From: Polytrichum commune
Lineage: Eukaryota; Streptophyta; Polytrichopsida; Polytrichales; Polytrichaceae
Reading direction: 5' to 3'
DNA: 64,000 nucleotides
Assembly (NCBI GenBank): GCA_950295325.1
Contig: OX485807.1
Span: 20,927,666 to 20,991,665, forward strand
A program made the position numbers and the translations under genes. How positions within the stretch are numbered: position 1 is the first letter of the stretch; every line of letters starts with the position of its first letter. Positions 1,371 to 28,300 of this stretch are shown here, in pieces. The notes under the pieces are model-generated. The model did no database searches. It saw only the letters and a list, made by a program, of their open reading frames with translations, and was not told where the DNA came from.

Positions 1371-4300
1371 GAAAAGGGCGGTGAGGGCTCACACGTGCCT
1401 CGATCTCTACCGCGGTGGTGACTTGTGGTTTGGGAAGTTAGATTGGTGATTGGTTGTGGATGCTTGTCAGTTTAAAATATGCGGAGCGAAGGGTTGTGAG
1501 GTTTGGAAGAGGTTGTCATTGCGCAGTCTGGTTCGGAGACGCACTTTTAAATTTGTGTTCCCAGGTTGGGAGAGGATTTCCAAGTTCTCAGAAAACTGGA
1601 TTTCCTTCGTGACGCCATCGGTGTTGAGATTCTTGGAATTCATCGGATTTTTGGCTTTAAAAATACCATAGTCTTTGGAATATATAGTGATATGGCTGTT
1701 CCACCCCGCCAAGAGCAGCATCCAAGTAAGGTAGTTTTTATGATATCATGAAGGGTTTGAGAGGATTTCCGAATGTATTTCCTGAATTCGGCAGTTGGTC
1801 GGTTGTGGAGTGCACGGGCTAATGCATCTTCCGACCTCGGTACTCGACAGAATTTTGTTTTCACACTACTGGACGAAGACGTGCCTTTGTTTTCTGTCGG
1901 GGATTGACAGTTTGTGGTGTGGCAGTGCACAGGTTATGATCTGTATAAGCAAGGCAGGTTTATTTGAAGAAATTTTGTCAGATAAACATCTCCAAGTGTT
2001 GCTGTTGGAGGAACGCAAATGCATGCGGGGTCCACTAAGTTGCTTTATGTGAGTATCTTAATGATTCGGGACGGCGTTTAGTATGAAAACAGCTTCATGA
2101 AGCGGAGCGTAGTGTGAAAGAGTTTGGAGTGGCTGGATCTTAAAGGTGGAAATCTAAGGGATTCGTACAGGAGCGAAATTGGTGGAGATTGCGTGCAACA
2201 GGGGATATTTGAATTTGGAGGTATTGAGGGTACAGGTGTTAGGAAAGAGCAAGCAGAGAGGCAGGAAGATGGCATGGTGGGAGGATTACGTGAGTGATGA
2301 GGTGATGGGAACCTTTGCGCCTATAGTGGTGTATTGGTTGTACTCCGGGTGTTACCACATGCTGCCACGGATGGAGAAGTACCGATTGCACTCGGTGGAG
2401 GAGGAGGAGAAGAAAAACATCATGAGTGTACCTGAGGTGGTGAGGAGTGTGCTTCTCCAGCAGGCCATCCAAGTTTGTGTTGCTCTCGCTCTCTTCAAGG
2501 TATGACCTACTATTACTCCTATCGTACCCCCTTCTTTTGCCCTATCCTTGGAGGTTTGCAGGTGCTCTTCTTAACCTCAACAATGCTATCGTAGTTCGGA
2601 CGATGTGCATATCTACAAATGTAGACGATGTGGATGTTGTTACCAGGACAGAATAATCCAAATTCGGTTTGATTAGATACGTCCGTTTTAGTTGGTCCAC
2701 AGTGAATGTGGACTCAGCCATTTTGCCCGATTCTCATTGCTGGTGGGGGACCTTACACCTTGTCTTAAGAATTTCCATGAGTTGAAGTTAGGTCATGTGA
2801 AGGCTTGTGATCAGGTCTTTACATCGAGGGATTAGTTGGAGAGTTGCAGAGTTCCTTTGAATTAGACGATAACTGTGAAGGTGCATTTTACTGACTGAAC
2901 AACTAAAAGTCCGTGGAGTATGTGATAGGTCCTCAGTGCTATGCAAACTGTATCGATTGGGATGCTCTGGTTAACCATTTCCAACGGACAAAAGAGGTTA
3001 ATGCGTGTTCTGGTGGTCCTAATTCATGATACTTAAGAAGTAGGGGAGGTTCATACATTCTGCATCTGTGCTCATCCTGCAATTTGCCACAACTAAATTA
3101 GTATCAAAGAATTTGCCAAATTAAGCTGGTTTCCAGATGCCACCACTGTCAGAAAGTCGTGATCCTTTCAGTTAGTCAGGCCCAATATTTGTCCTGCAAG
3201 AGCCACGTTGTGGTTCTAAGAGTGAAGGGAATCCGCGGGTTGCTATACTTGAGAAGGGACAGGGTACCACTCATGAATATCAGTCGATTGCAGCATGGAG
3301 ACCAGTTGGTACATAGCCGACCAAAAGTAGCCACCTCAGCTACATTGTCCTTGGACTAGCTAGGGTACCATAGAGATAATGCATTGTCTGTAAATTGTCT
3401 GTAAATTGGCTGCCTATTTCAATTTGATGTGAAATTGGACTATGGATACAGAAGCAAGCGATTCATGGGAGGTTGTTGGTTGGGTGCATGGATTCCTTAA
3501 ATGTATACATGTGAAGGGTTATGATCTGCCACTAATGTGTTTTATTTGATGGGGTTTGAGCAGATTACAGGACAACAGGAGAAGGTGCAACAGCCGAGTG
3601 TGTGGGTGGCGTCGCTGCAATTTTTTGCAGCAATGATTGTTATGGACGCATGGCAGTATTTTATACACCGGTTGATGCACATCAACAAGTTTATGTACAA
3701 GCACGTCCACTCTCATCACCACCGCCTGGTTGTGCCATATGCTTTCGGAGCTCTTTATAATCATCCTTTGGAAGCTCTACTGTTGGACACGGTGGGTGGG
3801 GCGTTGTCATTCCTTTTGACAGGAATGACTCCTCGGACTTCGGTGTATTTCTTCACGTTTGCAACTATTAAGACCATCGATGACCATTGTGGGTTATGCT
3901 TACCATATAATCCATTTCATTACATTTTTTGGAACAACACGGCATATCACGATATCCACCATCAGTTGCACGGTTTGAAGTACAACTTCTCGCAACCCTT
4001 TTTCATATCATGGGATAAAATCTTTGGGACGCACATGCCATACGTCGTTCAGAAGAGAGTGGAAGGTGGTCTGGAAGTACGACCAGTGAAGAAGATGGAA
4101 TAGGTGACCTTTTTCTCATCTGTTTGTTTTGGTCCTGCAACCCCTGGGAGTTGCTGACATGTATTGTTTCTCCCACTGGGAGGTGTGACTTGTGAGAAGA
4201 TTTATGAGTAGGTTTAGAATTAGAAATGGAGACGCTGCTTTAAATGTAAGCAGTGACTTGAGATAAGGATATTAGTTTGTACAAAACCATGAAAAGTGAT

Positions 4301-5084
4301 CCAGAGAGCTGTACACGAGATAGGGTCGTGTTGCTCACACTCATTGATCTCATAGATAGCCATATTTTCTTCCAATGTAGGTGGCACTTAGGCTGGTTGA
4401 ATTTTTTAGAGTTTGTATTTTATACAAGGCTTGTTGTCTTCGTTGAAGCTCTGGCCTGAGGCTTCAGCTTTGAAGGAGAAGTTATGAAGCAGGTTAGGAC
4501 ATTGATGTTTATGTGATTGCACGATATGGATGATACAAAGTGAAGAGGTGAGGTCCTGGAAATAAATGGTTACCACAATACACATTGCAACAGAAAGTGG
4601 TGCCAGAGGCAATCAAGTAACATTGCACTGCTGGTGTTGTGGCACAATTCTTTATGGAATGAAATTTGTCCCAGCATTATGAAGTCATGTACTGGTAAGA
4701 CAGTCTGAAGGGTTAACTGTGTGTAGGTAGCAATAGGGTCTTTAAATACTTTGACCTCCGTGTCAGTTGTGTAGCAGGTTAAATAATGTAGGTGCTCTCC
4801 TCTCTAGGTATGTGTGCTCTAATTGAGGAACTAGCTGTAAAACATGAGTATGTACTCTGCTATCAACAGTGTTATCAGCCTGACAGGAGGCAGTCTTGTA
4901 ATCTTTGATGCAAATTTGGAGAAATGTGTGAAAGGACACTGGTTTAGAGAGAAGTTTGTGACAGGCTTTGCATCTTGGTGGTGCAGTTTTTGCTGTAGTT
5001 CATGTGGACAGAAGTGAAGAATGTATGACCAATGAGCTCAAATCTGATTCTAGGTCTTCAACTGCACTCAAAGATAAAATTTAT
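1371..5084 (+). repeat. Segmental duplication, copy 1 (pairs with 25,395-29,106)
   Basis: A direct 3.7 kb duplicate lies about 24.02-24.03 kb downstream. Identity is high through 5' flank, exon 1, the 1 kb intron, exon 2 and about 980 bp of 3' flank. Homology starts near 'AAGGGCGGTGAG' and stops after 'CAAATTTATG' (copy 2) or 'AAAATTTATG' (copy 1). Copy 1 has an extra 'GTCTGTAAATT' repeat near 3,395 that copy 2 lacks. The MULE begins only 86 bp after the copy ends. Confidence 0.92.
2269..4103 (+). CDS. SBH: Sphinganine C4-hydroxylase (sphingoid base hydroxylase), copy 1
   Basis: Two exons, 2,269-2,499 and 3,564-4,103, join in phase 0 across a GT-AG intron of 1,064 bp to give 256 residues, the normal length for plant SBH proteins (about 260). 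The enzyme is a membrane di-iron fatty acid hydroxylase of the ER that adds the C4 hydroxyl of phytosphingosine-type long-chain bases. The three histidine boxes are intact: HRLMH (112-116), the H-rich box around 124-130 (KHVHSHHH) and HDIHH (206-210). The blocks ALYNHPLE, TIKTIDDHCG and NNTAYHD are typical of the family. Hydrophobic segments occur near residues 12-32, 60-77 and 93-107. The ATG of MAWWEDY precedes the EVMGTFAPIVVYW block aligned with known N-termini. The protein differs from copy 2 only at residue 43 (Val here). Confidence 0.95.
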
Positions 5085-5160
5085 GAAAGTCTATGTATAC
5101 TGATTACATCTCAAAATGAAACGTCTATTAGTTTAATACTAGCAGTATATTGGAATAACA

Positions 5161-5169
5161 CCATTAACT
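5161..5169. repeat. Left target-site duplication of the 13.3 kb MULE
   Basis: The 9-mer CCATTAACT abuts the left TIR; CCATTAACC follows the right TIR at 18,472-18,480 (8 of 9 match). A 9-bp duplication is typical of Mutator-like insertion. The single mismatch suggests some age or a small error after insertion. Confidence 0.85.
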
Positions 5170-5254
5170 GGCGGACATTAAAGTACCCCCTACGAACTTG
5201 TAGGGGGCATGTCAGAGCAAAATGCTGCCCTGCCCGTCCGTCGACGACGATGAC
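5170..5254 (+). repeat. Left terminal inverted repeat of the MULE
   Basis: The TIR starts GGCGGACATTAAAGTACC and matches the reverse complement of 18,387-18,471 over its whole length, with four mismatches. It contains a short palindrome: 8-bp arms CCCCCTAC and GTAGGGGG around a 6-nt spacer. Confidence 0.93.
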
Positions 5255-5270
5255 GTCAGCAACAGAGTTC

Positions 5271-5780
5271 CGTCCATCATCCATCGAACGAATAACGCAG
5301 GACGACACCAAAAGCACTGCACTGAAAGCCAACGTCATTCACGATCAAGTCATTCAAATGGATGTCCTTCCGTAAACATCGGATCTCAGATCTAAACTTG
5401 TGGGGTTTCGTCCACCATCCGTCGAACGAATGACGTAGGACGACACCAAAAGCCCTGCACACAAAACCCACGTCATTCACGATTAAGTCATTGTCCTTCC
5501 GCAAATTTTGGATCTCAGATCTAAACTTTTAAGGTTTCAGGGGCTGGGGTAGCGAGTTAGTTCTTTGAATGTAGATTTCTGGTAGCTCCGATATGTGTCT
5601 CTTCATGCCTATGCACACATTCTTGTTGAGTGAATGACGTCCTATTGAAGGCTGCAGCATCTTCCCTCAGCTCCCACAATACACATCTCTTCATGCATAT
5701 GCACACATTCTTGTTGAGTGAATGACGTCCTATTGAATAATGCAGCATCTTCCCTCAGCTCCCACAATACACATAGCAGA
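5271..5780. repeat. Subterminal tandem duplications in the MULE left end
   Basis: Two duplicated blocks follow the left TIR. The first has a unit of about 130 bp (5,271-5,400 and about 5,408-5,525), sharing 'ACGACACCAAAAG' and 'GGATCTCAGATCTAAACT'. The second has a unit of about 105 bp (near 5,590-5,690 and 5,690-5,775), sharing 'CACACATTCTTGTTGAGTG' and 'GCAGCATCTTCCCTCAGC'. Subterminal repeats like these often bind transposase; that role is inference. The short open frames here are by-products of the repeats. Confidence 0.7.
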
Positions 5781-5874
5781 AATCCGTTTCAAGTATCTTG
5801 GACATGTATGTTGCTGATGGGTTGATGGTTGTTTAGGGTTTGGGGTTTATAGGATTATGCATTGTGAAGTACCC

Positions 5875-6030
5875 ATGGTTTCAACAACTCAAACTGTTTT
5901 GATTGAAGGATTGCCAATACCAGAAGATGCCTTTGAGAATACTAATCCGCCAGCATTCCAAGCACATCAAGCTGATCTCATTATGGGCATGAGAGATAAA
6001 CTTTAGGATCCTCCTCCTGCTGAGTTTAGA
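5875..6030 (+). pseudogene. Possible N-terminal extension of the MULE transposase, broken by one TAG
   Basis: From the ATG at 5,875 the transposase frame reads 43 codons, meets TAG at 6,004-6,006, then continues open into the exon beginning at 6,031. The upstream residues (for example IEGLPIPEDAF and DPPPAEFRMEDL) have coding-like composition. This may be the original N-terminus lost by a point mutation, a 5' leader, or a read-through site. Comparison with another copy of the element would decide. Confidence 0.45.
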
Positions 6031-8936
6031 ATGGAGGACTTAGCCTGGACAGATCATGTCACCAATGGGAAAGGTAGACACAAGAGCTCAAGAATGGCTG
6101 TGATTCCATGGCATAGGTTGCAGGATTTCATATCAGGAGAGCAACATCACCCTGATTACCCATGCAAATTCAATCCTGAGGTCATTAGGCGCAACTTGCC
6201 TAACTCATTGAAATCACCACGTGCACACAGTCCGGCTCTTGTAGTAAGGTTTCTTTTTCTCCTCTCTCCTCCACTGGTTTAGGGTTCATGATAGCTATCT
6301 GTAATCCATGGCGTTCTTCAAGCAACTTCTTCTATACTTTAAACTTCAATCTATGTCATTCTGTATCATTCAAAGTTTGTGCTTCACATTTCAATGTGGG
6401 ATTGTGTGACTAGCAGATACCACTGCAATTTTGGGCCAGAGGACAAGTCTGATGTTGTCCCAGAGGACATGCAAGCCCTTCTGAAATCCACCCAGAAACG
6501 TAGGATTAAAAAGAAACAAGCAAAACAGAAAAAAGGGAAGAAGGTCATACCAGAGTATGATGCTTTCCCTGTAAACAAATCAATTGCTGCCAAGGTGAAG
6601 CGTGTGGGCAAAACAGTTGGTGGTGTATCCATTAAGAGGGGGTGCAGGCGTTGTTTTGTTGCTAACCAACTCTATCTGGATCCCACTTTGTGCATGTTGG
6701 TTTATGAGAACACCATGCACCTGAACGCACGCGGTGAACATAGCCACGGATCAATGGTCAGTGGCTTCCGGTATGCATTGGGTGCTGGAATATCAGATGA
6801 GATGAAATACAAAATAGCTAAAATGCATGCTTTTGGGCTATCTCCGACACAAATTATGCAGCAACACACCAAAGATGTCCGGGAATTGGCTTTGGTTAAT
6901 GGCCCTGTCACTCGCGATACGTTTTTGTTGCCTACAGATGTAAGGAATATTTGTCGCAGGCGTGCGGAAGAACTATGGATGAAACACCCTTCTGATCCCT
7001 TAAGCGTTCGTATGTGGACACTAGAAAACCCTGATAGTGTCTTCTATTACCAGGAACATTCACTTATGGACCTGAATTCTTCTACTCAGACTGATGCACC
7101 CTTCACCCTTGGAATCCAAACTGCATGGCAACTGGAAATGATGGGAAAATTTGGTCACAACAGCGCACTCTCAATTGACGCAACATTTGGGACCACCCAA
7201 ACACGGGTTCCACACTTCCCTCTATGTCCTTCATCTTTTATGCATGTCATTCACTGTTTGTGTGTCAACACCTATGTCATGCACTGTCATTCCTATTCAT
7301 AAGCTTTTATTAATGTCCTTGTTGGTTTAAGCTGGCAATTTACTTGTTTGTGACAGTATCCGCTATACACTGTTATGGTTTTTGACGAATGGAGGAATGA
7401 CATACCTGTGGCTTTCTTTGTTATCTCACGCACCCGCGAGCAGGACCTCATTCCTGTTCTTCAAGCCCTCCACAATAAACTTGCAGAGTACATGCCGAAT
7501 TGGTGTCCTTCGTCCATCATAGTTGATAATGCCCAAGCTGAAATCAATACATTGAGGTATTGCCAAATTTCAACCAACTTTTTCTTATTTCGAGTTAGGG
7601 TTTAGGGATTCTTACAGTGTCATGCACATGCAGGCTTGTATGGCCGGATGCGAAGATCTTCCTTTGCCTTTGGCATGTTCGGAAGGCGTGGGCAGAAAAT
7701 GCCATTAAAAAAATTCCCACACATGCAGAACGTGCTGCGGTCCTCCAGATGGTGGGTGATATTATGTATGGTAACGGATGTGGTGTGGACGATGACCCAA
7801 TCCATTGGGCTCTACAACAACTCGACATTATAACCAACACTAGACCACGATCCGCCGCATTCATGAGGTACATGAATGACAACTGGAGAACAAAGGCACC
7901 GATGTGGTGTGTGGGTGCGAGAAGGATACCTCATGCTGGCCAAAATACTAATGCCGCCATTGAGTTGTACCACTCTAACTTGAAAAGTATATTAACCTCT
8001 ACAAAGGAGCGTTTTGTCGGGAGACGCATGGATTGGCTCATCTACCATCTCACCGGTGATGTGGTTACACATTATTGGTACGGAGTCCAATGCAAGCCAT
8101 TTGGATTTGTACGAAACAAACATCACGAAGGTATTGTATGTTCAGCCATCATTCGCGCATCAAGAATACTAGATACTAATGTTTTGATCTGCATGGAGGA
8201 CAACATAGCATACGTTGGATCTGTGAATAACAGACCTAGAGTATGGACCATACATTCACCTGATTCAGAATGGGCCCAGTGTGATTGTCCAATCGCACGG
8301 GAAGGTATGATATGCAAGCATACCATGAAGGTCTTCAAGATGCTCCACCCCGACATCCAAGATGGTGTCATTGTTAGGCACGCAGGTACTCTGCACAGGG
8401 TTGATCGTAGCACTCCAATGTCTCAGTGTTATTCAAAGGTCCCACCGGGTGTCATACGTGAAGGACACGCGCAACATGTTTCGGACACCTTCACAGACAA
8501 TGTCACCAGTGACATCGTGGATCTCCACACTGAAACCATTGGGTACATTGGTGGACCACAACATCCAATGATCATGGACGAAGAAGACACTCCCGAGATG
8601 TCATCCCAGGTGTTGTTGGGTAATGTTTTGACCTGTGATAAACTTTTTCAATACGACATTGGGAGTAGCAAGGCTGCAACGGGAGCAACAGTTCATAATC
8701 TATACACGACATTGACGAAGAACGTCGATACTTACCCCGCTCTTCATGCTCATTTGCTTGCGGACTTGAAACACATCCATGGAAAGCAGACTGAGCTCAT
8801 TGCTCGCGGTGACGCCATGTTGCAGCCGGCATCCACGCCCATGTCATTCCCTACGCGAGATGGTGATAACTCCCTCAAGCGTCATCGGAGCTTTCTAGAA
8901 AACCCACCACCCAGAAAGAAGAAAAGAAATGATTAA
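6031..8936 (+). CDS. MULE transposase (MuDR-like, SWIM zinc finger)
   Basis: Four exons, 6,031-6,248, 6,417-7,206, 7,357-7,556 and 7,634-8,936, join in frame across short GT-AG introns (168, 150 and 77 bp) to give 836 residues. N-terminal Cys149, Cys152, His181 and His183 resemble the WRKY/GCM1/FLYWCH-type zinc fold of many MULE transposases. A lysine-rich stretch precedes it. The likely DDE triad is Asp327 (SIDATFG), Asp393 (IIVDNAQAE) and Glu513 (AAIELYHSN), with the family CxxH motif at Cys414-His417 (CLWHV). A SWIM finger lies at Cys619, Cys621, Cys630 and His632 (CDC...CKH). The C-terminus is basic. The same frame is open upstream from an ATG at 5,875 except for one TAG at 6,004-6,006, so either translation starts at 6,031 or the true N-terminus is broken. 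It should cut and integrate this element and its relatives. Confidence 0.9.
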
Positions 8937-9289
8937 ATTCCCAGTGGTAGTACGTATTTATTGTCAACAACGTTATTTATAATTCTACAATGTACAAACT
9001 ATTGGAGCACAATGTACCTAAGCTTCTATAGATGTATTACATATAAAATAATTGAGATATTCAGCTTACTAGTACATGTTTTGATGTCCTGGATATATCT
9101 ATGGGTTCAACCATTCCAAAATATTTAGGCAAGACTAGAATGACATAGATTCAAATGAGTCCATTATTTATACAAACTGAAGGACTTATTCATAAAGTCC
9201 TTAGTTCAAGGACTAGATGGCCATGTCTTGCAACAAGGCTAAACATGCGATTTGAAACATGTTACCACTGCAAATGTTCATCATCATGT

Positions 9290-9700
9290 AATTTGACTGA
9301 AGGACTGAATGATTGAAGGACTAAATGATTGAATGACTGCATGATTGACTGAAGGACTGTATGATTGACTGAAGGTCTGCATGATTGATTGAAGGACTAC
9401 ATGATTGACTGAAGGACTGTATGATTGACTGAAGGACTGTATGATTGACTGAAGGTCTGCATGATTGATTGAAGGACTACATGATTGACTGAAGGACTGT
9501 ATGATTGACTGAAGGACTGTATGATTGACTGAAGGTCTGCATGATTGATTGAAGGACTACATGATTGACTGAAGGACTGAATGTTTGACTGAATGACTGA
9601 ATGATTGAAAGACTGAATATTTGACTGAAGGATTTAATGATTGAAGGACTGAATGTTTGACTAAAAAACTGAAATGTTTTGCTGAATGACTGAATGATCT
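9290..9700. repeat. 20-bp minisatellite with an 80-bp higher-order period
   Basis: Units of the type ATGATTGACTGAAGGACTGT repeat about 18 times, decaying at both edges. In the core (about 9,340-9,580) three variants are ordered A-A-B-C and recur: A ends GGACTGT, B ends GGTCTGC, C has GATTGATTGAAGGACTAC. This gives an 80-bp higher-order repeat. It lies between the 3' ends of the two convergent genes of the MULE. Confidence 0.88.
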
Positions 9701-11814
9701 CACATCATTCACACTAACTACACTTGTTCTATATAACCCAAAATCATCATATGCAAGACATATGATAGAATACCACAATGATAAAAACTTTGCTTTGTAT
9801 TAAGAAAGAGTGTACAATTCCCCGATCACTATACTATAGTGATCATGTGTTGCTAATATACATATTGTACCGGGAGATGTATATTTACACAATACTACAC
9901 ATCGGCATTTACGAAAATGAAGCATCATCTTCTTCCGTGCTGGCTGGTTAGACGGCGGCGTATTCTGTTCTTGCTCCTTAGTGGCGTTCCCTTCTTCGTG
10001 GTCACTTTCACAGTCCACTCCGACCCCTCATGCATCCCAGTTGTCAAAACATCAAACAAAGCATTACTTATGACTTGCCGTTGCTTTATCGCCTCACTCC
10101 TTTCATAATGAAATACACAGCCCTACACAGTGAATGACACATTACACAAGTCAGCACATAGAATATCTTGCATAATATACAAACAAATACGATGTTTTTA
10201 TCATCTAATTGAATGACGACTGGGTTATTCGATGCACAGAATCGCAACTGACCTCACGCAGGGTTTGGGGGTTATGTCTCAGGGCGTGAGTATACTCCAT
10301 TATGTTCTTCAACACATAATATCCACAGGCCCAACCATAATTCTGTTGTGGAACAGTTGGCTGGATCCAAACAGTCGGTGATTGTGCATTTCGCCACATG
10401 ACCGAATGTTCAGCGTAGCCACCCCGCGCGGTCCACATCTTTGCTAACCGCTTGCGAATCTTTGAATCAGAATGTAGTCCAGAGTTGCTCATAGAATCAA
10501 AATGAATAAACCCTTGATCCCCTAGAACGTACAGGGTCCAGTGTTTCCCGCAAGTGTAGGGTACTAGGAGAGTTGTAATGTCTAACTCTGGAAAATTTGG
10601 ATATTTCTCATGGACAAACTTTATCAATACTTCTAAGCTCTTGGTCGGATGCAGGCAAAGAAAACTTATTAAAATAGGAATGAGATACGGACTACAGACA
10701 TGACACTTAATATCTTCAAGCTGTGGATTCAACCACGTCCTGGTCCACTCCATCAAGTGGTTGGACACCTCACCGTATCTAACAGTTAGTGGCTTTATAT
10801 CATACGTCCAGTCTAATGTACAAAATTCATCCTTAAGCGTAAATTCAAACGAAGGACTTACTGCCCCACCTGTATCAGCCACAATGGTGTTGACTAGTTC
10901 TTCCAACCTGCACACCGCAAATGCATATCCATTAGAGAACAATAAGACCATACACTATAAGAGAAATTATGTTTATCCAACAACGATATTGAACTAACCG
11001 ACATTTAATTCTTACCGTCCATCGGACTTGTGAGACGTCCTAGAGATGACATCGTCGATTGTGTTATCCTTATGTTTTTTGCGATGTCCTTCAACCACTT
11101 CTGACATGATTGACGTATTCGGTGTTGATGATACTTGACCTTCACGTGTGCTCTTTGATTCAGAGTTATCGAGGCCATTAGTAGGAGTTGGTGGTGGTCC
11201 TAACCGGCGCGTGACTGAAACCGACGGAGGCGCTTCAATGACAGTCAACGCTGGAGTCCTGCGGAACCATGGTCCTTCACGCTTATCTTTATGCAACTCT
11301 ATTGCTGTGCATGGCGATTTTGAATGCATCGTGCAAAGCAGACCGTCCGGGGAAAGAGGCGTCGGGGAAGTAACCGTCTTCACAGGCGTGCCTTCAATGT
11401 CCTTCACAGTTTGCGTAAGGTCATGGGTATCACTGCTCTCTGAACCATCTTCTCGCATTTGTAAAGGGAGTGGACCACCCTCAAGGCCTTCCAACCTTAG
11501 TGCATCTTGGATTTCTGCTACAAACCCTTTTGGAGTGTGTATCCCATCATGCTGGGTTGGCTGTGTAAACTCACCCAATAACGTACGTGTAGCTGCCACA
11601 TCGTCCGCAATATCGTCGCTGGCCTCCTCCAACCCTAAACCAGTGTAAAGTAGTTGTAGTTGCGTGCGTCGGAACGCCACCATAAATTCAATCGCCTCGG
11701 CAAGCCGCAACTGAGCACAAGTGCTTTTCTTGTGGATGTCGCCAACTACCACTGAACCTATGTCGGCGTCTTCTCGAATGACCATTGCTGAACATAATAC
11801 CTGTATGTCATTAA

Positions 11815-12180
11815 CAAAAAATAACGTAAGTCACTGTATGACAACATGAATGACGTAAGCCACTAAATGACAATAAGAATGAAGTAGCCACTGAATGACT
11901 TATATGAATGAAGGAAGTCCCCAATTTATTATATGAATGAAGTGAGTCACTGAATGACGTGCATGAATAACATTAGCCACTGAATGACATACGTAAATGA
12001 CAATAGTCACTGAATGAACTATATGAATGACATTAACCACTGAATGACTTATATAAATGAAGTAAGTCACTGAATGACGTACCTAAATGACATTAGTCAC
12101 TGAATGAAGTATATGAATGACATTAGCCACTGAATGACTTATATGAATGAAAATTGATATTTACAATAAATGACACACAT
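11815..12180. repeat. Intron made of degenerate repeats rich in GAATGAC
   Basis: The intron between exons 3 and 4 of the protease gene consists almost wholly of diverged units like 'CACTGAATGAC' and 'TATGAATGACATTAGC', spaced about 20-40 bp. In the direction of transcription the core reads GTCATTCAGTG or GTCATTCATAT. The same word occurs in other introns of both genes of the element. Confidence 0.75.
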
Positions 12181-13829
12181 CAAATTACATACCTTTTCAC
12201 ACCAAGCCCTCCGTTGTTCAGGGACATTGACGGCATACCACATGTCCTCGAGCTCTGAGGACCGTTGCATTCTGACCATATCAGAGACTGCCCTATGTGC
12301 GATTCTACCAATGAAGGCGTTGATCCTTTCTACAACTCCAACTTGTTTTTCTGGATCGTAACCAAGCAATGCAACGGTGTCCGAATGGAGATTGCTAAAG
12401 GTGTCGACCACTTCTTGAATACCTGGAAACAAAGCCCACCCCGTCGTAGCCAAACTATGCACAATATTCGTCAATGCAACCGATTTATCCTTGTCTTTTG
12501 CAATGTCCAAAATGTACTGCTCCGTGAGACCTACATGTGGATGAGGAAGAGGACGTGTGTTGCCATCTAATGTCCTGACTAAGACCAAAAACGCTCTAAC
12601 AATATGAGGACACTCAAGCTCAAGAGAAAGAGGCTCTGTACTGACATTCTCTAACAATATTGTCTGTAATTCTTCCCATTCATCGCGCGTGTGCGCCCAA
12701 GGTGAGGTTCGGAAATTGGGCAGATGCCATTTTTTAAAAACACTGTACAGTGGGGACCATTCCCACTTCTCTTGTTTGGCACGACTCTTCTCTGCATTAT
12801 CAAACTTCTCCTTCACATATTGACTGCGTAATTCGGCGATATTCCCAAGGGCAGCAGCAACTTTGGCCTCGTACTCTCTGGTTTGAATTCTGAAGTTGAG
12901 GTACTCCTTTAAATGCATGAGCTCTTCATACCTTTGCACGTCCGAAGGGCTATTGAAACATGCAATTTGCGACTTTATCTTGGTGAGAAGAGGTATGTGA
13001 TCTTCTGGGGCTCGCTTGTTCTGAAATAAATGAAACGTCTATGTCATTCATTGTTACACTCATGAATGACATAGTATACAACTGGTGACATATACCATAT
13101 ATGTAAAGTTCAATGAAGGACAAATACTGAACATATGAATGACATCACATACCGAATTTCCGTAAAGGTACCATGTGCCAAATGCGCTGCCAAGTTTAAC
13201 GCCAAGGGTCCCCTCCTCCACCATCCTATGGAGGAATTGAATGCAAGCGTGAGGATCTTCAATGAGGTCTTTGGGCATCCAATCATTGTCCACCTCGGTG
13301 AGCAAGATGTATAATCCACTTATATCACAGGTGTAGGCGGAGGAGGAATGCATACAGGGTTTCCATCAGGGAACTTCAACTTGGCTTTAAGCCACGCATG
13401 CTCCTCAATTTTATCCCGTGTGAGAATGCAACCAGAATGACGGTGGGTGAAGTCACGTCCTTCAGATGTGGTTTCGCGCGAAGTGGAGTCACTACTAGAA
13501 AATCATGACCAAATCAACAAAAAATCAACAGATCTTTGTCGATCCGGGCACTGCAATGACCGATTTCACTGATTTTTGAATTTTTGTAAAAATCAACAGT
13601 TTACTGCCTACATTTTTGTTGATTAGAATAGTACAATGACCAAATCAACAAAATTTTAGTAAATGTGAAATCTTTTTTGAATCTTTTTTGGAATATTCTA
13701 GGATCTATTGGAATATTGTAAAATCTTTTTAATTTTTTGCAATTTATGGACTTGTAAGTGTATGGGTATGGAAATAATTACGAATTCAAAGGTGTTTAAA
13801 TATTATAAATATTATATTAGTTGATTGTT

Positions 13830-14230
13830 AATTATATATATATATATATATATATTAATATATATAATATGTATATAATATATGTAACATATAATATATA
13901 TATGTATGTATGTATATGTATGTATATATGTATATATATAATATATGTAACATATATGTATATAATATATGTATATAATATATGTAACATATATGTATAC
14001 AATATATGTAACATGTATGTATATAATATATAAATATATAAATATGTATACATTTACAGTAAATATATACAGTATATATTTATTGTAATTATATACAGTA
14101 TATATTTACTGTAATTATATAGAGTATATATTTACTGTAATTATATACTGTATATATACTATAATTATATACTGTAATTATTTACAGTAATTATATACTG
14201 TATATATTTACTGTAAATATATACATCAAG
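13830..14230. repeat. AT-rich microsatellite tract (TATA and TATATTTACTGTAAT words)
   Basis: Runs of TA, TATG and GTAACATATATG pass into palindromic repeats of 'TATATTTACTGTAATTATA' type. The long open frames over it, rich in Tyr and Ile, are artefacts. It forms the interior of the CACTA element. Confidence 0.85.
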
Positions 14231-14299
14231 TAGGTAGTAAAGAGAAATTAGTGGCCTTATTCTAGAAAGGTTTAAAACACTCCGTTTATATCATGTATG

Positions 14300-14490
14300 A
14301 TGTGATGACCTAGTGGTTAAGGCACATGTGTGGGTATGACTAGGTGCAAGGTTCGATTCCCGTGGCCGGCACCTCCGGCCTTGGCCTTGCCACCTATGTG
14401 AGTGGTAGTTAGTCTATACTTGTAGGTGAGGTATATGTTGAGGGTTACTTGGGAGGGGTTAGGAATTGCAGATCTGACATTTATTCATTT
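14300..14490 (+). repeat. tRNA-like / SINE-type segment inside the CACTA element
   Basis: An A-box-like block (TAGTGGTTAAGGC, about 14,311) lies 30-40 bp before a perfect B-box-like block (GGTTCGATTCC, 14,350-14,360), as in the pol III promoter of tRNA genes. The ends do not pair as an acceptor stem and no sound anticodon arm is seen, so it is not a working tRNA. It is followed by about 110 bp of non-tRNA sequence and a T/A-rich tail, as in plant SINEs. Target duplications were not found. Confidence 0.55.
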
Positions 14491-15959
14491 TTTATTTTTT
14501 AATGTTATATATATATAAATATATATAATAAGTTTTTTTTAAAAAATATTTTAGTGACCATATCAACAGAAAAAATCAACAAAATTGTGTTACATCATGT
14601 CCAGGTCAACGCGTCCTAAGTAACAACCGCGACCAACGCCTTTCTGTTGATCCGGACGCAAAATTTTCTACTAGTGAGTGGATGTCGGGAGAGGTTGGCG
14701 CTGCAACCGGTGGTGTATCATCATCGCTGTCTTCTTTGGCTGAGGTCGTGGATGATTGTTGTTCATCAGAACCCTCAACCATTTGGTCGTCGCTATCCTG
14801 TGACACCTCCTTATCCTCAGTGTGATGAGTGTCCTGAAATGAGACATGCAACGGCAAAGGCTTCACCGGAGACCGCGATATCTTGCTCGGAGGAACAACA
14901 TGCGGGTTGGGGGCAGAAATTGCGGGAATCTTGCGGTGTTTTGGTGTAGGTTGTGGAAGGACACCCTCCGCCTTCCTTGTCTTGCCTGTAGAAGACTTTG
15001 GAGCAATGTGTTGCTGGAAAACCCTTCCGTATTTTTTGGCAATTCGGTTCAACTCACCGTGATCGCTCTTCTCCCAAGTTGGGTACATCTTAAGAGCTGT
15101 CGGATCCTTGTACACCTTACATAGGTTAAACATCCTATGGTAAGATGTCATATTTTTATCTTTATGTATCTCTTTACAAAAAATACAGGAGAAAGGATAC
15201 CTGCCATTTTTCAACCTGTCGGTAGTGACTCTGGCCATCGAATAACATTCAAGAGTCAGACGATCATAATCATCTTCTAAGAACAGAGCCGCACATGGCT
15301 TCCTATTGTGTGTCATGGTGCTCCTATAAATCCTCTGCCCACCATACACCTGCAAGTATGACAAAAAACGAAGTGGTAAGGGAGATGTCAGTGAATGACT
15401 GCATGACAACTACCATAATGACCACATATCATTGCATGACATATGAGTGAACTACATAAAAGACTGCCGAACACATAATATCCAAACCACGACAACTGAT
15501 TGTGAGCAATATTGGACCGAAAATCAAACCACCAAATCAACATAAGTTCAAATGCAAAATTTTTGACCAGAATGTGACCAGTGTGCAAAAAAAATTCGAC
15601 ATAGAAAACAAATATGAAGAGCCTGACTAGACTGTGATGCGAGTTGGAGCAAGAAAGCAATGAAATAGAAGATTGTGGGCGCTTAATTATCACAAACATG
15701 ACTCACCCCTTGTTGCCAACCCAGCGACCCAAAGACCACCATGTCCACAAATTTTGCTCGCCCAAGGATCTGGATCAATGGCGGATCCTCCAACACGTGT
15801 AGTCGATGCTGCAAAGCTTCTGGAACCAACTTTGCAGTTGTCCATGGCACCTGTTGTTGAGAGGAAGGGGTCGCCATAGATCCTGAAGGACGCAATGAGG
15901 TTAGGTATACCAGAAAGTTAGTGTTTGTTGTTGCAATTATTGAAATATTGAACTGTAAC

Positions 15960-17390
15960 ATTGCATTCAGTTATGGTTTTACAAGGGTGATCATGCTTGC
16001 ATTGCCTATTACACAAAGTCTACAATAGTTGTGATGTAGCAAAATGTAAGTGCAGGTTTGATGTGTTACAAGCTTATTTGTCACTTGGGAATATCTGCAG
16101 ATGGACTTCAGAAGACCAAAATGGGGAGAGATCAGTGAGACCTCGGCAGAACAATGATGAGTATCGATACTGGCTTTATGCTCGCAAAAGTATTACTATC
16201 AGTAGCTCTTATCTGTACACATCAGTAGACATCATAGTTACACATCAGTAGGCATCATTGAATTACCTAGTTAGGAGATACATTAAGCTCTATCCTCCAC
16301 GAAATGAATTCATTCTTGCCTGCGGAGTTTCTGACATAGTTTAAAGACCAAAATATGGTGGTCACACGTAATTGTAATGGTCATCAGTTTCCGTACAAAA
16401 CGTTTATTTTCTTGAGTGAGGGTTCAAACTCATTATTTAAAAACATGAATCAAAGACACCCTAAATTCTTGTCATTCGTGTGAGCATTCGAATTATTCAC
16501 AATTCGTGCCTATGAAGTATGATAGAAGTAGGCAGATACTAGTGTTGTGGATAGCTTACCTGGCCTCACACGTAGAGCTCATCCAGCATCAAAACCTCCA
16601 CCTAGCCACATCCATCAAACCAAATTCAGATCACATGTACATATATATATATGCATATAGACACATACACATACACATACTTACTACAGAAAATTCATGT
16701 TTCCTGTCATAGGCGGGGACATTTAAGCACATTTCCAGAAGCTGCAGATTCAATTCAACCAACACGGATAAGATAAGGCCTGACCTAATACTACTGCTAC
16801 TACTACTCTCACACCTCTACACGGCCAACTCAATTTCCACATCACCAACTCAACTCAATTCCGCAGGGTTTGGAGTCTGGAGGACATCCAACAGCCTTTG
16901 CACACAAAATAGAATTCAAATCAAACCAGAATCACCACCACCTCCAACAATCACTCCAACAATCACAGCAAAATTGTGACACCGCCAGACACGAAACCCA
17001 CCCCGTGGCCACCACATGCTACCGAGCAATGCTCCAATTCCTGCTCCGCAATCCCCCAATCGAACTTCCAAGGGTAAGGCGATGCAATTGTGGGAGCAGG
17101 TTTTTGTTCTGTTTGTACACTAGCTGACCTGGCTGGCTGGCGAAGCGATCAAATCAGCTGGTGCGCTCCTTGCCACACATGGCCAGCCAACAACAATAGG
17201 ACATGGCTTAGGGGAAGCGGTGAGTCGAAGGACGGGACGGGATAGAAGATGACTTAGCAACAAGAAATAAGTTGGTAGGATGGAGATGGAGATGGAAATG
17301 CGATGAGGGTGGATTGATGATGAGGAGGAGGAGGAGGAGCAACAGCGATGGAGGAGGGATGGCACGCTCTGTGGGTGCTAAAGCCCAAAC
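15960..17390. other. MULE right-hand non-coding region, upstream of the protease gene
   Basis: No gene is supported. The segment lies 5' of the protease start codon (15,877, minus strand) and so probably contains its promoter. Around 16,630-16,690 there is a short AT/ACATAC microsatellite. Around 17,310-17,345 there is a GAGGAG run. Confidence 0.45.
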
Positions 17391-17394
17391 TTTG

Positions 17395-17545
17395 TTCCTC
17401 GGTTATCAAACGGCGGTGTGAGTCAGTTATGAAACGGCAACGATGAAGTTCAAATCAGGTAGTGTGAGTTGGTTATCAAACGGCGACGATGAAGTTCAAA
17501 TGAGGTAGTGTGAGTCGCTTATCAAACGGCGACGATGAAATTCAA
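17395..17545. repeat. Three-copy tandem repeat, unit about 61 bp
   Basis: Units share 'GGTTATCAAACGGCGACGAT' and 'GAAGTTCAAATCAGGTAGTG' with minor changes. They lie in the subterminal part of the MULE right end. Confidence 0.75.
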
Positions 17546-17759
17546 ATCCTCGGAGTTAAAGGAAGAGCAGGGATCCGATCCGCATCGACCTGAACCTACC
17601 GACCAAGTCGAACAAACACAAATAGGATCCCTCACTACAAGAACAACCTACAATAACAAGACACAAACTGTCGTCGCTCACCTGAAGATCGATGAACACA
17701 CCAAACCTCGTCGTCACCAACCAAGCTCCTCCCAAACACCACCAATCTGATCCGATCAT

Positions 17760-17930
17760 ATCCTCAACCAAAGAGCTGTCTCCGTCCTCAACAAAAGAGC
17801 TGCCACAGTACTCAACCAAAGAGCTGCCTCCGTCCTCAACAAAAGAGCTGCCACAGTACTCATCCAAAGAGCTGCCTCCGTCCTCAACAAAAGCGATGCC
17901 TCCGTCCTCACCAAAGAGATGCTGACGATG
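17760..17930. repeat. Short tandem repeats (CCTCAACCAAAGAGCTGCC type)
   Basis: About six units of 27-28 bp alternate between 'CCTCAACAAAAGAGCTGCC' and 'ACTCAACCAAAGAGCTGCC'. The in-frame Ser/Thr/Lys/Glu/Leu/Pro reading over it follows from the repeat, so I do not call a gene. Confidence 0.8.
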
Positions 17931-18386
17931 ACTCAGTCCTAAACCGAAACCCTACATGGCGATGGCGAAGAGACGTGTTACAATAGATGATCCAATCAAC
18001 CAGAGGATCAAATCTGTACTCGTTGTATGATGTTTAGGGTACCAGATCTATTCAATCAAGATGGCCACAATTGAAGCGCGACAGACGTAACACAAAACCA
18101 CTCAAAGTGCTCAGTATCGTCCTGGAATCATTACTCCCTAAGAAGTCTAAGTTTTCACAATCATGATCAACTAACAATCACAATCATGAGAAAGATTTGC
18201 CATTGAGAGAGGCAAACTCCAATGAATGACATGATCAAAGGACAACACTAAACCCTAAACAGCTAACCTCGAAGGACGAAATCTTCTTCCCTACCGCTTC
18301 CCGGCACACAACCTCGGCACACAGTCTCTCTGTCATTCTGTCATGCCGCCCTGCCGTCCTTCATCCATTGGTGACCGGTTGTGCCG

Positions 18387-18471
18387 GTCATCGTCGTCGA
18401 CGGGCGGGCAGGGCAGAATTTTGCTCTGACATGCCCCCTACAAGTTCGTAGGGGGTACTTTAACGTCCGGC
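18387..18471 (-). repeat. Right terminal inverted repeat of the MULE
   Basis: It is the reverse complement of the left TIR, equal in length (85 bp) with four mismatches, and carries the same CCCCCTAC/GTAGGGGG palindrome. The following 9 bp (18,472-18,480) duplicate the target. Confidence 0.93.
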
Positions 18472-18480
18472 CCATTAACC

Positions 18481-25394: not shown

Positions 25395-28300
25395 ATTTGG
25401 GAAGGGCGGTGAGAGCTCACGTGCCTCGATCTCTACCGCCGTGGTGAGATTTGGCGATGGTGACTTGAGTTTTGGGAAGTTAAATGGGTGATTAGTTGTG
25501 GGTGTTTGTCAGCTTTAAATATGCGGAGCGAAGGGTTATGAGGTGTGGAAGAGGTTGTCGATGCGCAGTCTGGTTTGGAGATGCACTTTTATATTTGTGT
25601 TCCTAGGTTGGGAGAGGATTCCCAAGTTCTCAGAAAACTGGATTTCCTTCGTGACGCCATCGGTGTTGAGATTCTCGGAAATCCGTCTACAAAATAACCA
25701 TCGGATTTGGAATATATATCGATATGGCTGTTCCACCCCGCCAAGAGCAGCGTCCGAGTAAGGTGGGTTTTATGATATCGTGAAGGGTTTGAGAGGATTT
25801 TGGAATGTAGTTCTCGAATTCGGCAGTTGGTCGGTTGTGGAGTGCACGGGCTAATGCATCTTCCGACCTCGGTACTCGACAGAATTTTGTTCTCACACTC
25901 TGGACGAAGGCGTGCCTTTGTTTTCTGTCGGGGATTGACAGTTTGTGGTGTGGCAGTGCACAGGTTATGATCTGTATAAGCAAGGCAGGTTTATTTGAAG
26001 AGATTTTGTCAGATAAACATCTCCAAGTGTTGCTGTTGGAGGAACGCAAATGCATGCGGGGTCCACTAAGTTGCGTTATGTGAGGATCTTAATGATTCGG
26101 ACAACGTTTAGCAAGGGAAACAGCTTCATGAAGCGGAGCGTAGTGTGAAAGAGTTTGGAGTGGCTGGATCTTAAAGGTGGAAATCTAAGGGATTCGTACA
26201 GGAGCGAAATTGGTGGAGATTGCGTGCAACAGGGGATATTTGAATTTGGAGGTATTGAGGGTACAGGTGGTAGAAAGAGCAAGCAGAGAGGCAGGAAGAT
26301 GGCATGGTGGGAGGATTACGTGAGTGATGAGGTGATGGGAACATTTGCGCCTATAGTGGTGTATTGGTTGTACTCCGGGTGTTACCACATGCTGCCACGG
26401 ATGGAGAAGTACCGATTGCACTCGTTGGAGGAGGAGGAGAAGAAAAACATCATGAGTGTACCTGAGGTGGTGAGGAGTGTGCTTCTCCAGCAGGCCATCC
26501 AAGTTTGTGTTGCTCTCGCTCTCTTCAAGGTATGACTTACTATTACGCATATCGTACCCCCTTCTTTTGCCCTATCCTTGGAGATTTGCAGGTGCTCTCC
26601 TTAACCTCAACAATGCTATCGTAGTTCGGACGATGCGCATTTCTACGAATGTAGACGATGTGGATGTTGTTACCAGGACAGAATAATCCAAATTCGGTCT
26701 GATTAGAAACGCCCGTTTTCGTTGGCTCACAGTAAATGTCCACTCAGCCTTCTCACCCGATTCTTGTTGCTGATGAGGGACCTTACACCTTGTCTTAAGG
26801 ATTTCCATAAGTTGAAGTTAGGTCATGTGAAGGCTTGTGATCAGGTCTTTACATCGAGGGATTAGTTGGAGAGTTGCAGAGTTCCTTTGAATTAGACGAT
26901 AACTGTGAAGGTGCATTTTACTGACTGAACAACTAAAAGTCCGTGGAGTATGTGATAGGTCCTCAGTGCTATGCAAACTGTATCGATTGGGATGCTCTGG
27001 TTAACCATTTCCAACGGACAAAAGAGGTTAATGCGTGTTCTGGTGGTCCTAATTCATGATACTTAAGAAGTAGGGGAGGTTCATACATTCTGCATCTGCT
27101 CTCATCCTGCAATTTGCCACAACTAAATTAGTATCAAAGAATTTGCCAAATTAAGCTGGTTTCCAGATGCCACCACTGCGAGAAAGTCATGATCCTTTCA
27201 GTTAGTTAGGCGTGTTACTTGCTATGCAAGAGCCACGTTGTGGTTCTAAGAGTGAAGGGAATTCAAGGGTTCCTATACTTGAGAAGGGACAGGGTACCAC
27301 TCATGAATAACAGTCAATTGCAGCATGGAGACCAGTTGGTACATAGCCGACCAAAAAGTAGCCACCTCAGCTACATTGTCCTTGGACTAGCTAGAGTACC
27401 ATAGAGATAATGCATTGTCTGTAAATTGGCTGCCTATTTCAATTTGATGTGAAATTGGACTATGGATACAGAAGCAAGTGATTCATGGGATGTTGTTGGT
27501 TGGGTGTGTGGATTCCTTAAATGTATACATGTGAAGGGTTACGATCTGCCACTAATGTGTTTTATTTGATGGGGTTTGAGCAGATTACAGGACAACAGGA
27601 GAAGGTGCAGCAGCCGAGTGTGTGGGTGGCGTCGCTGCAATTTTTTGCAGCAATGATTGTTATGGACGCATGGCAGTATTTTATACACCGGTTGATGCAC
27701 ATCAACAAGTTTATGTACAAGCACGTACACTCTCATCACCACCGCCTGGTTGTGCCATATGCTTTTGGAGCTCTTTATAATCATCCTTTGGAAGCTCTAT
27801 TGTTGGACACGGTGGGTGGGGCGTTGTCATTCCTTTTGACAGGAATGACTCCTCGGACTTCGGTGTATTTCTTCACGTTTGCAACTATTAAGACCATCGA
27901 TGACCATTGTGGGTTATGCTTACCATATAATCCATTTCATTACATTTTTTGGAACAACACGGCATATCACGATATCCACCATCAGTTGCACGGTTTGAAG
28001 TACAACTTCTCGCAACCCTTTTTCATATCATGGGATAAAATCTTTGGGACGCACATGCCATACGTCGTTCAGAAAAGAGTGGAAGGTGGTCTGGAAGTAC
28101 GACCAGTGAAGAAGATGGAATAGGTGACCTTTTTCTCATCTGTTTGTTTTGGTCCTGCAACCCCTGGGAGTTGCTGACATGTATTGTTTCTCCCACTGGG
28201 AGGTGTGACTTGTGAGAAGATTTATGAGTAGGTTTAGAATTAGAAATGGAGACGCTGCTTTAAATGTAAGCAGTGACTTGAGATAAGGATATTAGTTTGT

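Follow-up and report, generated by a model that had tools for sequence, protein, structure and literature searches.

We found that the element at positions 5170–18471 of the window, the whole stretch of 64,000 nucleotides of Polytrichum commune DNA that was analysed, is one copy of a large family of two-gene MULEs with terminal inverted repeats (TIRs). Between the TIRs lie a transposase gene and, tail to tail with it, a gene for a C48 (Ulp1-type) protease, and purifying selection acts on both. MULEs that bear a Ulp1 domain are in themselves already known; the new part of the finding is a short motif, repeated in noncoding DNA, whose spelling depends on the clade. Such a motif suggests that one of the proteins may be directed to the very element that encodes it, possibly as a protection against silencing.

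Structure of the element

The two-gene element was confirmed and its features are given in Table 1, where the splice sites and exons of both genes are predictions from the sequence. The matched 85-bp TIRs described in an earlier note on this DNA were found again, identical at 81 of 85 positions. The 9-bp target duplication (TSD) claimed there is present and has that length, although its copies agree at eight of nine positions and not fully; among 13 other elements opened, nine had a TSD matching at at least 8/9. A Peptidase_C48 gene on the minus strand faces a transposase gene on the plus strand, which is the MULE with an opposite Ulp1-type gene that the note had proposed; the motif arrays and the break caused by a nested CACTA-type insertion had been overlooked. 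The transposase domain with its DDE and SWIM motifs, together with TIRs and a TSD in the 8–10-bp range, marks the element as a MULE. When an empty site was sought in the duplicated flank, the duplication was seen not to reach the insertion site, ending 85 bp away from it.

Table 1. Features of the two-gene element, in window coordinates
Feature	Position	Strand	Remarks
Left TSD copy, CCATTAACT	5161..5169		8/9 match to 18472-18480
Left TIR, inner dyad CCCCCTAC..GTAGGGGG	5170..5254	+	81/85 identical to right TIR
Transposase exon 1 (predicted)	6031..6248	+	matched in other copies
Transposase exon 2, up to first DDE Asp (SIDATF)	6417..7206	+	omega 0.13 for most of exon
Transposase exon 3, second DDE Asp (IIVDN)	7357..7556	+	PF10551
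Transposase exon 4: C..H, catalytic Glu (TNAAIE), SWIM CxC..CxH	7634..8936	+	omega 0.19
Tandem array between the two genes; its 20-bp unit contains TGAAGGAC	9294..9655		
Protease exon 6 (predicted)	9925..10122	-	
Protease exon 5: C48 catalytic domain, His/Asp/Gln/Cys	10253..10907	-	omega 0.26
Protease exon 4: fast-evolving region	11016..11800	-	omega 0.26
30-bp tandem array with TGAATGAC, in protease intron 3	11829..12154		
Protease exon 3: conserved middle region, no recognised fold	12193..13020	-	omega 0.20
Protease exon 2, second part, past nested insertion	13153..13489	-	frame change in window copy
CACTA-type insertion, nested in the MULE but foreign to it	13490..14676		1,187 bp, TSD AGT
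Protease exon 2, first part: C-x2-C-x12-H-x5-C finger and conserved flanking block	14677..15349	-	omega 0.11 (conserved block)
Protease exon 1 (predicted start)	15707..15877	-	
Right TIR	18387..18471	-	85 bp, 81/85 identical to left TIR
Right TSD copy, CCATTAACC	18472..18480		8/9 match to left copy

Transposase and protease genes

The four predicted transposase exons join into 836 amino acids without a stop, in agreement with the open transposase reported earlier. Pfam matches were obtained to the MULE domain (PF10551, E 1.5e-16) and the ZSWIM1-3 RNaseH-like domain (PF21056, 3.9e-9); the DDE residues and the CxC..CxH of the SWIM motif were read by eye, the latter falling under the Pfam cut-off. 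An in-frame TAG lies upstream of the Met at 6031, and in many other copies too the match starts at this Met.

The protease exons are predicted to total about 1,200 residues and encode, in order, a C2HC finger, the middle region and the C48 domain, so the long extra region that the earlier note placed ahead of C48 is supported. Peptidase_C48 was matched over the Pfam cut-off (E 4.6e-7) and the catalytic H, D, Q and C are present, which places the protein in peptidase family C48; the best PDB relatives of the domain were the Ulp1-like SUMO protease 6dg4 (E 2.9e-4) and SENP8 (E 0.01). No credible Pfam match was obtained in the N-terminal pieces tested, nor any useful match of the middle region to PDB or Pfam (11 copies in the case of Pfam). 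Single-sequence structure models were of low confidence (pLDDT 52 for the finger region, 34 for the C48 exon).

In the window copy, the 1,187-bp CACTA-type insertion interrupts exon 2 and the frame shifts between about 13365 and 13319, whereas in other copies, among them L001, L002, L006 and L008, both exon 2 parts can be read in one frame. The window gene, described earlier as a spliced gene of about 1,160 residues ending in a C48 core, is therefore a pseudogene with an intact catalytic exon.

Copies, linkage and selection

The earlier note had made its claim depend on other full copies, and six elements besides that of the window were found in which two facing TIR matches enclose both genes. 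About 81 C48 loci fall into several clades, the C48 domains of clades 2–4 being 28–57% identical to that of the window. At all 52 scored loci a C48 gene lies downstream of the transposase and convergent with it within 15 kb (chance about 0.6% each); this count used one hand-entered row per locus (52 transposase and 81 C48 loci), drew on a transposase search that scored 54 of 1225 candidates, and omitted C48 loci that were short or fragmentary, roughly a dozen or more, as well as a group 28–32% identical. Trees of both proteins, a check also proposed earlier and made here within the genome, had 11 of 12 splits in common for the 15 of 22 loci having all five pieces, and the correlation of transposase and protease distances was 0.98, a value reached in none of 5000 permutations.

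In codon models, omega was 0.26 for C48 (n = 21 loci), 0.20 for the middle region (16), 0.26 for exon 4 (18), 0.11 for the finger block (18), and 0.13 and 0.19 for two transposase exons (19 each), with stops masked and at least 80% of the piece covered; fixing omega at 1 cost 197–567 log units. Because 20 loci had been chosen by hand for spread and open frames, intact copies are over-represented among them; some loci are free of stops in every exon tested. The catalytic His, Asp and Trp were present in 21 of 21 copies, Gln in all 20 readable ones and Cys in 18 of 20. The C48 profile matched every one of 14 copies scanned (E ≤ 0.1; best 1.8e-9), and the C-x2-C-x12-H-x5-C finger was found in 18 of 19 copies, the most distant clade included. 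After removal of broken exons and near-duplicates, 14 of 21 C48 exons were aligned; the other alignments held 11 middle-region loci and seven of the ten rows tried for transposase exon 4.

A repeated noncoding motif

The noncoding DNA of the family is rich in the 9-mer TG[AC]AnnACA, spelled according to clade as TGAAKGACA, TGCAGAACA or TGCACTACA, with TGAAGGACA and TGAATGACA also among the spellings; in several counts, "noncoding" means outside tblastn matches to the window proteins. The window element has 42 TGAA[TG]GAC in 5.9 kb of noncoding DNA, while permuted motifs reached at most 18 (mean 0.39), and 4 were found in the 50.7 kb of window flanks. A general regional feature was rejected, the broad pattern occurring at 0.47 per kb in the flank and TGAA[TG]GAC not at all in the nested CACTA element.

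Compared with dinucleotide shuffles (at most one mismatch), the best 9-mers were CTGAAGGAC (108 against 3.9), TGAAGGACA (144 against 7.0) and TGCAGAACA (57 against 3.3 and 47 against 2.2), and in the distant clade 4 TGCACTACA came up unprompted (28 against 2.9). The TG[AC]AnnACA register gave the top 9-mer in five of six groups and in clade 4. When each close group was represented by a single copy, TG[AC]A..ACA exceeded all 300 permuted patterns in four of four clades, in a recount that left bridged introns uncovered and took the window exons exactly. When near-identical copies were included, one of 300 permuted patterns matched the clade-3 count; since such copies entered the 9-mer ranking and the permutation counts, those counts are not independent.

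There were exceptions. With the broad pattern, coding DNA also had 1.4–2.7 motifs per kb against 0.47 in the flank, and TG[CA]AGAACA was commoner in coding than in noncoding DNA at L014 (9 of 15 sites) and L015 (9 of 12). At L016 a different 9-mer ranked first and TGCAGAACA only sixth, and in clade 1B the unrelated word ACTTAAGTC came second. Genome-wide, clade-4 motif doublets numbered 13 (control 2), none of them at clade-4 C48 loci.

Gene-less elements with a clade-1-like TIR carried 6–16 motifs each in four of four opened, all outside the 110–139 bases that BLAST aligned to the 21 autonomous loci at E 1e-5, a threshold that old, decayed similarity could escape. It is thus unlikely that they hold the motif by shared descent with the opened autonomous copies.

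Comparison with known systems

The VANDAL elements of Arabidopsis, with their VANC proteins, are similar in being MULEs with a SWIM transposase, a 9-bp TSD and further genes kept beside it, and in having noncoding motifs of 8–9 bp, often intron tandem repeats, with subfamily-specific spelling (PMC5735166, PMC6446971). VANC21 binds YAGTATTAY and VANC6 targets AGTTGTCC/AC, and VANC motifs are often tandem repeats in the noncoding DNA of their own TEs (PMC5735166); some VANC genes have a Ulp1 domain (PMC13317346). A subfamily-specific short motif dense in noncoding DNA was found here as well, with the exceptions of L014, L015, L016 and the clade-4 genome scan. VANC proteins contain DUF1985 and DUF287 (PMC5735166), whereas the N-terminal pieces tested here showed no credible Pfam family; neither DUF was found in the window pieces (E ≤ 1, relaxed to E ≤ 10 for the first 281 residues) or in the middle region of 11 copies (E ≤ 1), a scan confined to these pieces, in which HMMER filters drop most matches above 0.1. 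Many VANDALs are described as having no TIRs or short degenerate ones, although a table in the same survey gives 46–174 bp for the VANDAL group (PMC6446971). The moss system resembles VANC/VANDAL anti-silencing, in which the protein binds its motif and causes hypomethylation; here the likeness is one of sequence features.

Kaonashi (KI)/KIU elements and the ULP-MULEs of melon, rice and grapevine likewise have a C48 gene that runs opposite to the transposase, and in melon the ULP domain occurs in TIR-MULEs too (PMC2528002). KI-MULEs themselves are described as non-TIR. By comparison with these descriptions, the moss element differs in its TIRs, C2HC finger and extra middle region, and it is possibly independent of, or deep-branching relative to, the angiosperm Ulp1-MULEs. 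Ulp1-bearing Mutator elements of hydra and lancelet, and Ginger1, likewise have C48 on a cut-and-paste transposon; as described, Ginger1 has the Ulp1 domain at the transposase C-terminus (PMC2836005), whereas here it is in a separate convergent gene. Host ULP2/SENP-type proteases have the same H-D-Q-C core, but the host ULP loci opened read, for example, QDNQCDCGIFLLHYVELFL, and the element reads QQNxxWACGxYxLKNIxE in most copies. A literature search combining Ulp1, transposon and Physcomitri found no publication.

Possible role of the accessory protein

The reading we prefer, to which we give roughly an even chance, is that the product of the protease gene is an accessory factor, a SUMO/UBL protease guided by the motif, which most likely acts against silencing. 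The protein would be modular, with an N-terminal C2HC zinc-finger-like module, the middle region and an isopeptidase domain of the C48 (Ulp1/SENP) type. The clade-specific TG[AC]AnnACA, repeated in introns, between the genes and in internal noncoding DNA, would recruit it both to the element that encodes it and to relatives without genes. There it would free chromatin proteins of SUMO or of a different ubiquitin-like modifier, allowing the element to evade silencing, be transcribed and move. We infer from the sequence features that the accessory protein, and not the transposase, binds the motif and that it is an active deSUMOylase; an anti-silencing outcome is suggested by analogy. More tentatively, and with clearly less confidence, bryophyte MULEs may have evolved such a system independently of the angiosperm VANC/Kaonashi lineage, the finger-bearing protease co-diverging with TG[AC]AnnACA, whose two middle bases vary, and gene-less relatives gaining or keeping the motif to ride along.

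Some points against should be mentioned. The transposase is an equally plausible binder of the motif, and in the window copy the protease gene is itself broken. Silencing in Arabidopsis is reported not to depend on the SUMO ligase activity of PIAL2 (PMC10338684), so SUMO removal need not relieve it.

It is rather unlikely, though the strongest of the alternatives, that the motif is a site for the transposase or a transposition cofactor, as TNPA sites are in CACTA elements, and that the C48 protein aids transposition itself, for example by keeping SUMO or ubiquitin off the transposase or through an effect on repair proteins. The motif is present in gene-less derivatives, which must retain transposase sites, and its spelling follows both trees equally well, that of the transposase and that of the protease, because the two agree; the Ulp1 and OTU domains of Ginger elements have also been proposed to act in transposition (PMC2836005). 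However, the window TIRs contain no motif copies, and the density is highest in three protease introns (15–30 per kb) and the intergenic array, compared with 5.8 per kb in the left end region and 1.2 per kb in the right one.

Less probable still are minisatellite-like expansions or host transcription-factor sites, with the accessory protein acting without DNA guidance. Two dense stretches of the window are indeed tandem arrays, leaving out the 20-bp array lowers the intergenic density from 16.6 to 1.8 per kb, and many TGAAGGACA doublets sit in another long-TIR repeat family; against this, window motifs also occur beyond the arrays, and TG[AC]AnnACA leads the rankings described above despite the low C48 identity of clades 2–4. 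That a fragment of a host ULP gene was captured once, as a functionless passenger of the Pack-MULE type, was rejected as highly improbable; such a one-off capture had been named in the earlier note as a refutation: MULEs often hold captured fragments (PMC2528002, PMC13317346), but the many C48 loci in several clades, their 52/52 linkage, purifying selection and congruent trees stand against it, as does the finding that none of 149 C48 matches lay at the five host loci that a profile search found and that were classed by eye as ULP2-like, genes whose short exons such a search can miss.

The preferred reading, a motif-guided protease acting against silencing, bears on how transposons beat host silencing, which is an open question; to our knowledge VANC is the plant anti-silencing case that has been worked out in detail. 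If true, bryophytes would have a second, structurally different system, pointing to motif-guided anti-silencing as a general strategy, and with a recognisable catalytic domain and a readable motif one could test directly why Ulp1 proteases are present on many transposons. Should the protease be the effector, it would also be a tool, guided by sequence, with which SUMO or other modifiers could be taken off selected chromatin.

Copies, ends and surroundings

The TIRs, target site duplication (TSD), transposase and C48 gene attributed to the window element in the earlier note were all found. Its spliced protease gene of about 1,160 residues was borne out only in part: the C48 gene is there, but this copy is split by an insertion and its frame is changed. 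A CACTA-type element (TSD AGT, end CACTACTAGAAAATC) is nested in exon 2, and the frame shifts directly after it, unlike in several other copies, where the exon-2 region stays in one frame.

A 91-bp left-TIR query gave at least 40 matches in the genome (the best 40 of 89 candidates). Six elements besides the window hold both genes between two facing TIR matches, and at one of them, C4:15.51, the N-terminal part of the protease gene was absent among the matches listed. A TSD of 8/9 or better was seen in the window and in 9 of 13 other opened elements, gene-less ones counted; none was found at C7:6.40, C7:6.47 or the gene-less L026, and the ends of the C6:21.15 element were missed by the pattern used for the TSD search. 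Recognisably akin ends were observed in clade 2 (GGCAGACAATATGGTACCCCCTACGAGCTTTTGTAGGGGG), clade 3 (GGAGGACGCTAAACACCCCC...ACGAACTTCTAGGG) and clade 1B, a single end in each of the first two; no second end turned up in any of the three. The pairs L003/L004, L006/L008 and L009/L011 are about 99% identical across 5-9 kb, which points to recent movement of the family.

The host genome measures 408 Mb and has seven large contigs; a further contig, C8, carries plastid-type DNA with rbcL, trnR-CCG and a 315-aa accD consecutively. Such a gene order resembles that of bryophytes, and a set of seven chromosomes would agree with some mosses. In the window, a direct duplication with fatty acid hydroxylase exons in both copies flanks the MULE on both sides and stops 85 bp before its insertion site. 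One open frame has a match to the DDE_3 endonuclease family and is probably a transposase remnant, and a match to an F-box protein with a beta-propeller was also noted. At the protease-side end of the MULE, a 131-aa open frame overlaps a 24-bp tandem repeat and is probably not a gene.

Coordinates of elements and neighbouring features
Feature	Position	Remarks
Two-gene element with facing TIRs	C5:10.02-10.04 Mb	
Two-gene element with facing TIRs	C4:15.51 Mb	
Two-gene element with facing TIRs	C7:6.40 Mb	
Two-gene element with facing TIRs	C7:6.47 Mb	
Two-gene element with facing TIRs	C6:40.49 Mb	
Two-gene element with facing TIRs	C6:21.15-21.18 Mb	
Clade 1B end	near C1:936.5 kb	
Clade-4 locus	C2:575-593 kb	read completely
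L023	C1:35.317-35.320 Mb	gene-less; 820-bp TIRs (99.6%), 8-bp TSD
C48 cluster	C5:50.11-50.46 Mb	nine profile matches
CACTA-type insertion	window 13490-14676	
Direct duplication	window 1412-5085 / 25454-29106	3.7 kb, 95.4% identical
131-aa open frame	window 17556-17951 (-)	
F-box protein match	window 29829-30593 (-)	
DDE_3 match	window 33117-33719 (-)	

Pairing and common inheritance of the two genes

Among the matches listed, a convergent C48 gene lay within 15 kb of the transposase in 52/52 loci, at a median distance of 2.4 kb. The transposase search scored the best 54 of 1225 candidates, so protease-less loci may exist among the remainder, and the same selection may account for the C48 loci listed without a transposase (29/81). 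Elsewhere, a C48 cluster on C5 suggests local amplification; the two members opened (L038, L039) looked by eye like host ULP2-type genes. The layout recurs in the distant clade 4, where C48 is about 28% and the transposase exons, save short pieces, 38-50% identical; the locus read completely has finger, middle region and C48.

In codon models, omega was 0.26 in both C48 and exon 4, 0.20 in the middle region and 0.11 in the finger block; two transposase exons came out at 0.13 and 0.19. Fixing omega at 1 worsened the fit by 197-567 log units. The active-site His, Asp and Trp were conserved in 21/21 copies, Gln in 20/20 readable and Cys in 18/20, the sole losses being Cys to Tyr in two clade-3 copies, L013 and L014. 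In the 15/22 loci with all five pieces, trees of the concatenated transposase and protease proteins had 11/12 splits in common, the discordant one lying among near-identical copies (support 54), and the distances correlated at 0.98, a value reached by 0/5000 permutations. All six tested pieces were in one frame at 80% cover in 12/21 loci, 7 of these 12 without a stop; the window counts among the seven because its lesions fall outside these pieces.

The C48 profile matched in 14/14 copies scanned; among PDB relatives a Ulp1-like SUMO protease ranked best (E 2.9e-4), followed by SENP8 (E 0.01). A C-x2-C-x12-H-x5-C finger, spaced like a classical zinc finger whose final His is swapped for Cys, was present in 18/19 copies; a Pfam search of this region gave no match and its structure model was not confident. 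The middle region is conserved (mean column identity 69%), with no PDB match at E<=1 and no credible Pfam match.

A short motif in noncoding DNA

In the window element, the noncoding DNA (5.9 kb) holds 42 occurrences of the word TGAA[TG]GAC and the coding DNA (6.2 kb) holds 6; the nested CACTA has none, and the flanks, 50.7 kb in all, have 4. The sites lie in the end regions, the intergenic region and the introns of both genes, and include two tandem arrays of 20-bp and 30-bp units.

When 9-mers were ranked by counts within one mismatch against dinucleotide shuffles, the top word conformed to TG[AC]AnnACA, in full or over the first eight positions, in 5/6 groups and in clade 4: CTGAAGGAC in 1A (108 versus 3.9), TGAATTACA in 1B (42 versus 3.5), TGAAGGACA in clade 2 (144 versus 7.0, TGCAGAACA following with 61 versus 6.4), TGCAGAACA in 3D (57 versus 3.3) and 3E (47 versus 2.2), and TGCACTACA in clade 4 (28 versus 2.9). 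In 1B, ACTTAAGTC, outside the pattern, ranked second (32 versus 1.9) and TGAAGGACA third (32 versus 2.1); in 3F, a single locus, a different word led and TGCAGAACA was sixth (10 versus 0.9). A telomere-repeat-like word, CCCTAAACC with its shifts, was also enriched in noncoding DNA (1A, 28 versus 1.3; clade 2, 29 versus 2.6; clade 4, 15 versus 1.5).

With near-identical copies included, noncoding TG[AC]AnnACA counts in clades 1-4 were 150/30.2 kb, 151/15.9 kb, 63/17.0 kb and 22/10.1 kb, equalled by 0, 0, 1 and 0 of 300 permuted patterns; the flank held 24 in 50.7 kb. With one copy per close group the counts were 110/20.7 kb, 68/7.2 kb, 39/9.6 kb and 14/7.5 kb, equalled by 0/300 permuted patterns in every clade, and the density in coding DNA of clades 1-3 was 1.5-2.5 per kb. 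Spellings differed between clades: TG[CA]AGAACA was absent from noncoding DNA of 9/9 clade-1 loci, and TGAA[TG]GACA occurred at most twice per locus in that of 6/6 clade-3 loci. Exact TG[CA]AGAACA was mainly coding in L014 (9/15 sites) and L015 (9/12), which counts against the noncoding pattern.

Genome-wide, TGAAGGACA doublets numbered 276 (136+140) versus 1 in the reversed control. Those among the matches listed (C1 and part of C2) grouped into 25 loci, of which 7 fall, judged by position, inside gene-bearing elements. Many of the remaining loci have a unit in common with L023, the sole one opened, whose TIRs have a related end sequence, GGCTAACGCTAAAGAGACCCC, and which is packed with TGAAGGAC. 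TGCAGAACA doublets (19 versus 0) lay at 13 loci, and at 7 of these a listed gene of the family is no more than 5 kb away. TGCACTACA doublets (13 versus 2) never fell at clade-4 loci, which counts against genome-wide specificity of the clade-4 motif. Four gene-less elements with clade-1-like TIRs, L024, L025, L026 and L027 (4/4 opened), held 11, 11, 16 and 6 motifs; BLAST against the 21 autonomous loci aligned just 110-139 of their bases, and none of the 44 motifs lay within the aligned parts.

Possible role of the accessory protein

ULP-bearing TIR-MULEs have been reported from melon (PMC2528002), and the main text of a published MULE survey (PMC6446971) has neither bryophyt* nor moss. Since TIRs are present, we do not class the moss family as Kaonashi. 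The closest working model is VANC, a protein encoded by a TE; it recognises and binds short motifs within the noncoding repeats of that TE's family and makes them lose DNA methylation (PMC5735166, PMC10398659). Some members have Ulp1 domains (PMC13317346). The moss family is alike in anatomy, but DUF1985 was not found in the pieces scanned, and it is therefore not classed as VANC. Speaking against a simple SUMO story, PIAL2 ligase activity is reported not to be required for silencing (PMC10338684). We weigh two readings of the C48 protein and its motif accordingly. That they form a transposition cofactor system seems rather unlikely; we see an even chance that the accessory protein would act as an anti-silencing factor, guided by the motif to its own element and relieving silencing there.
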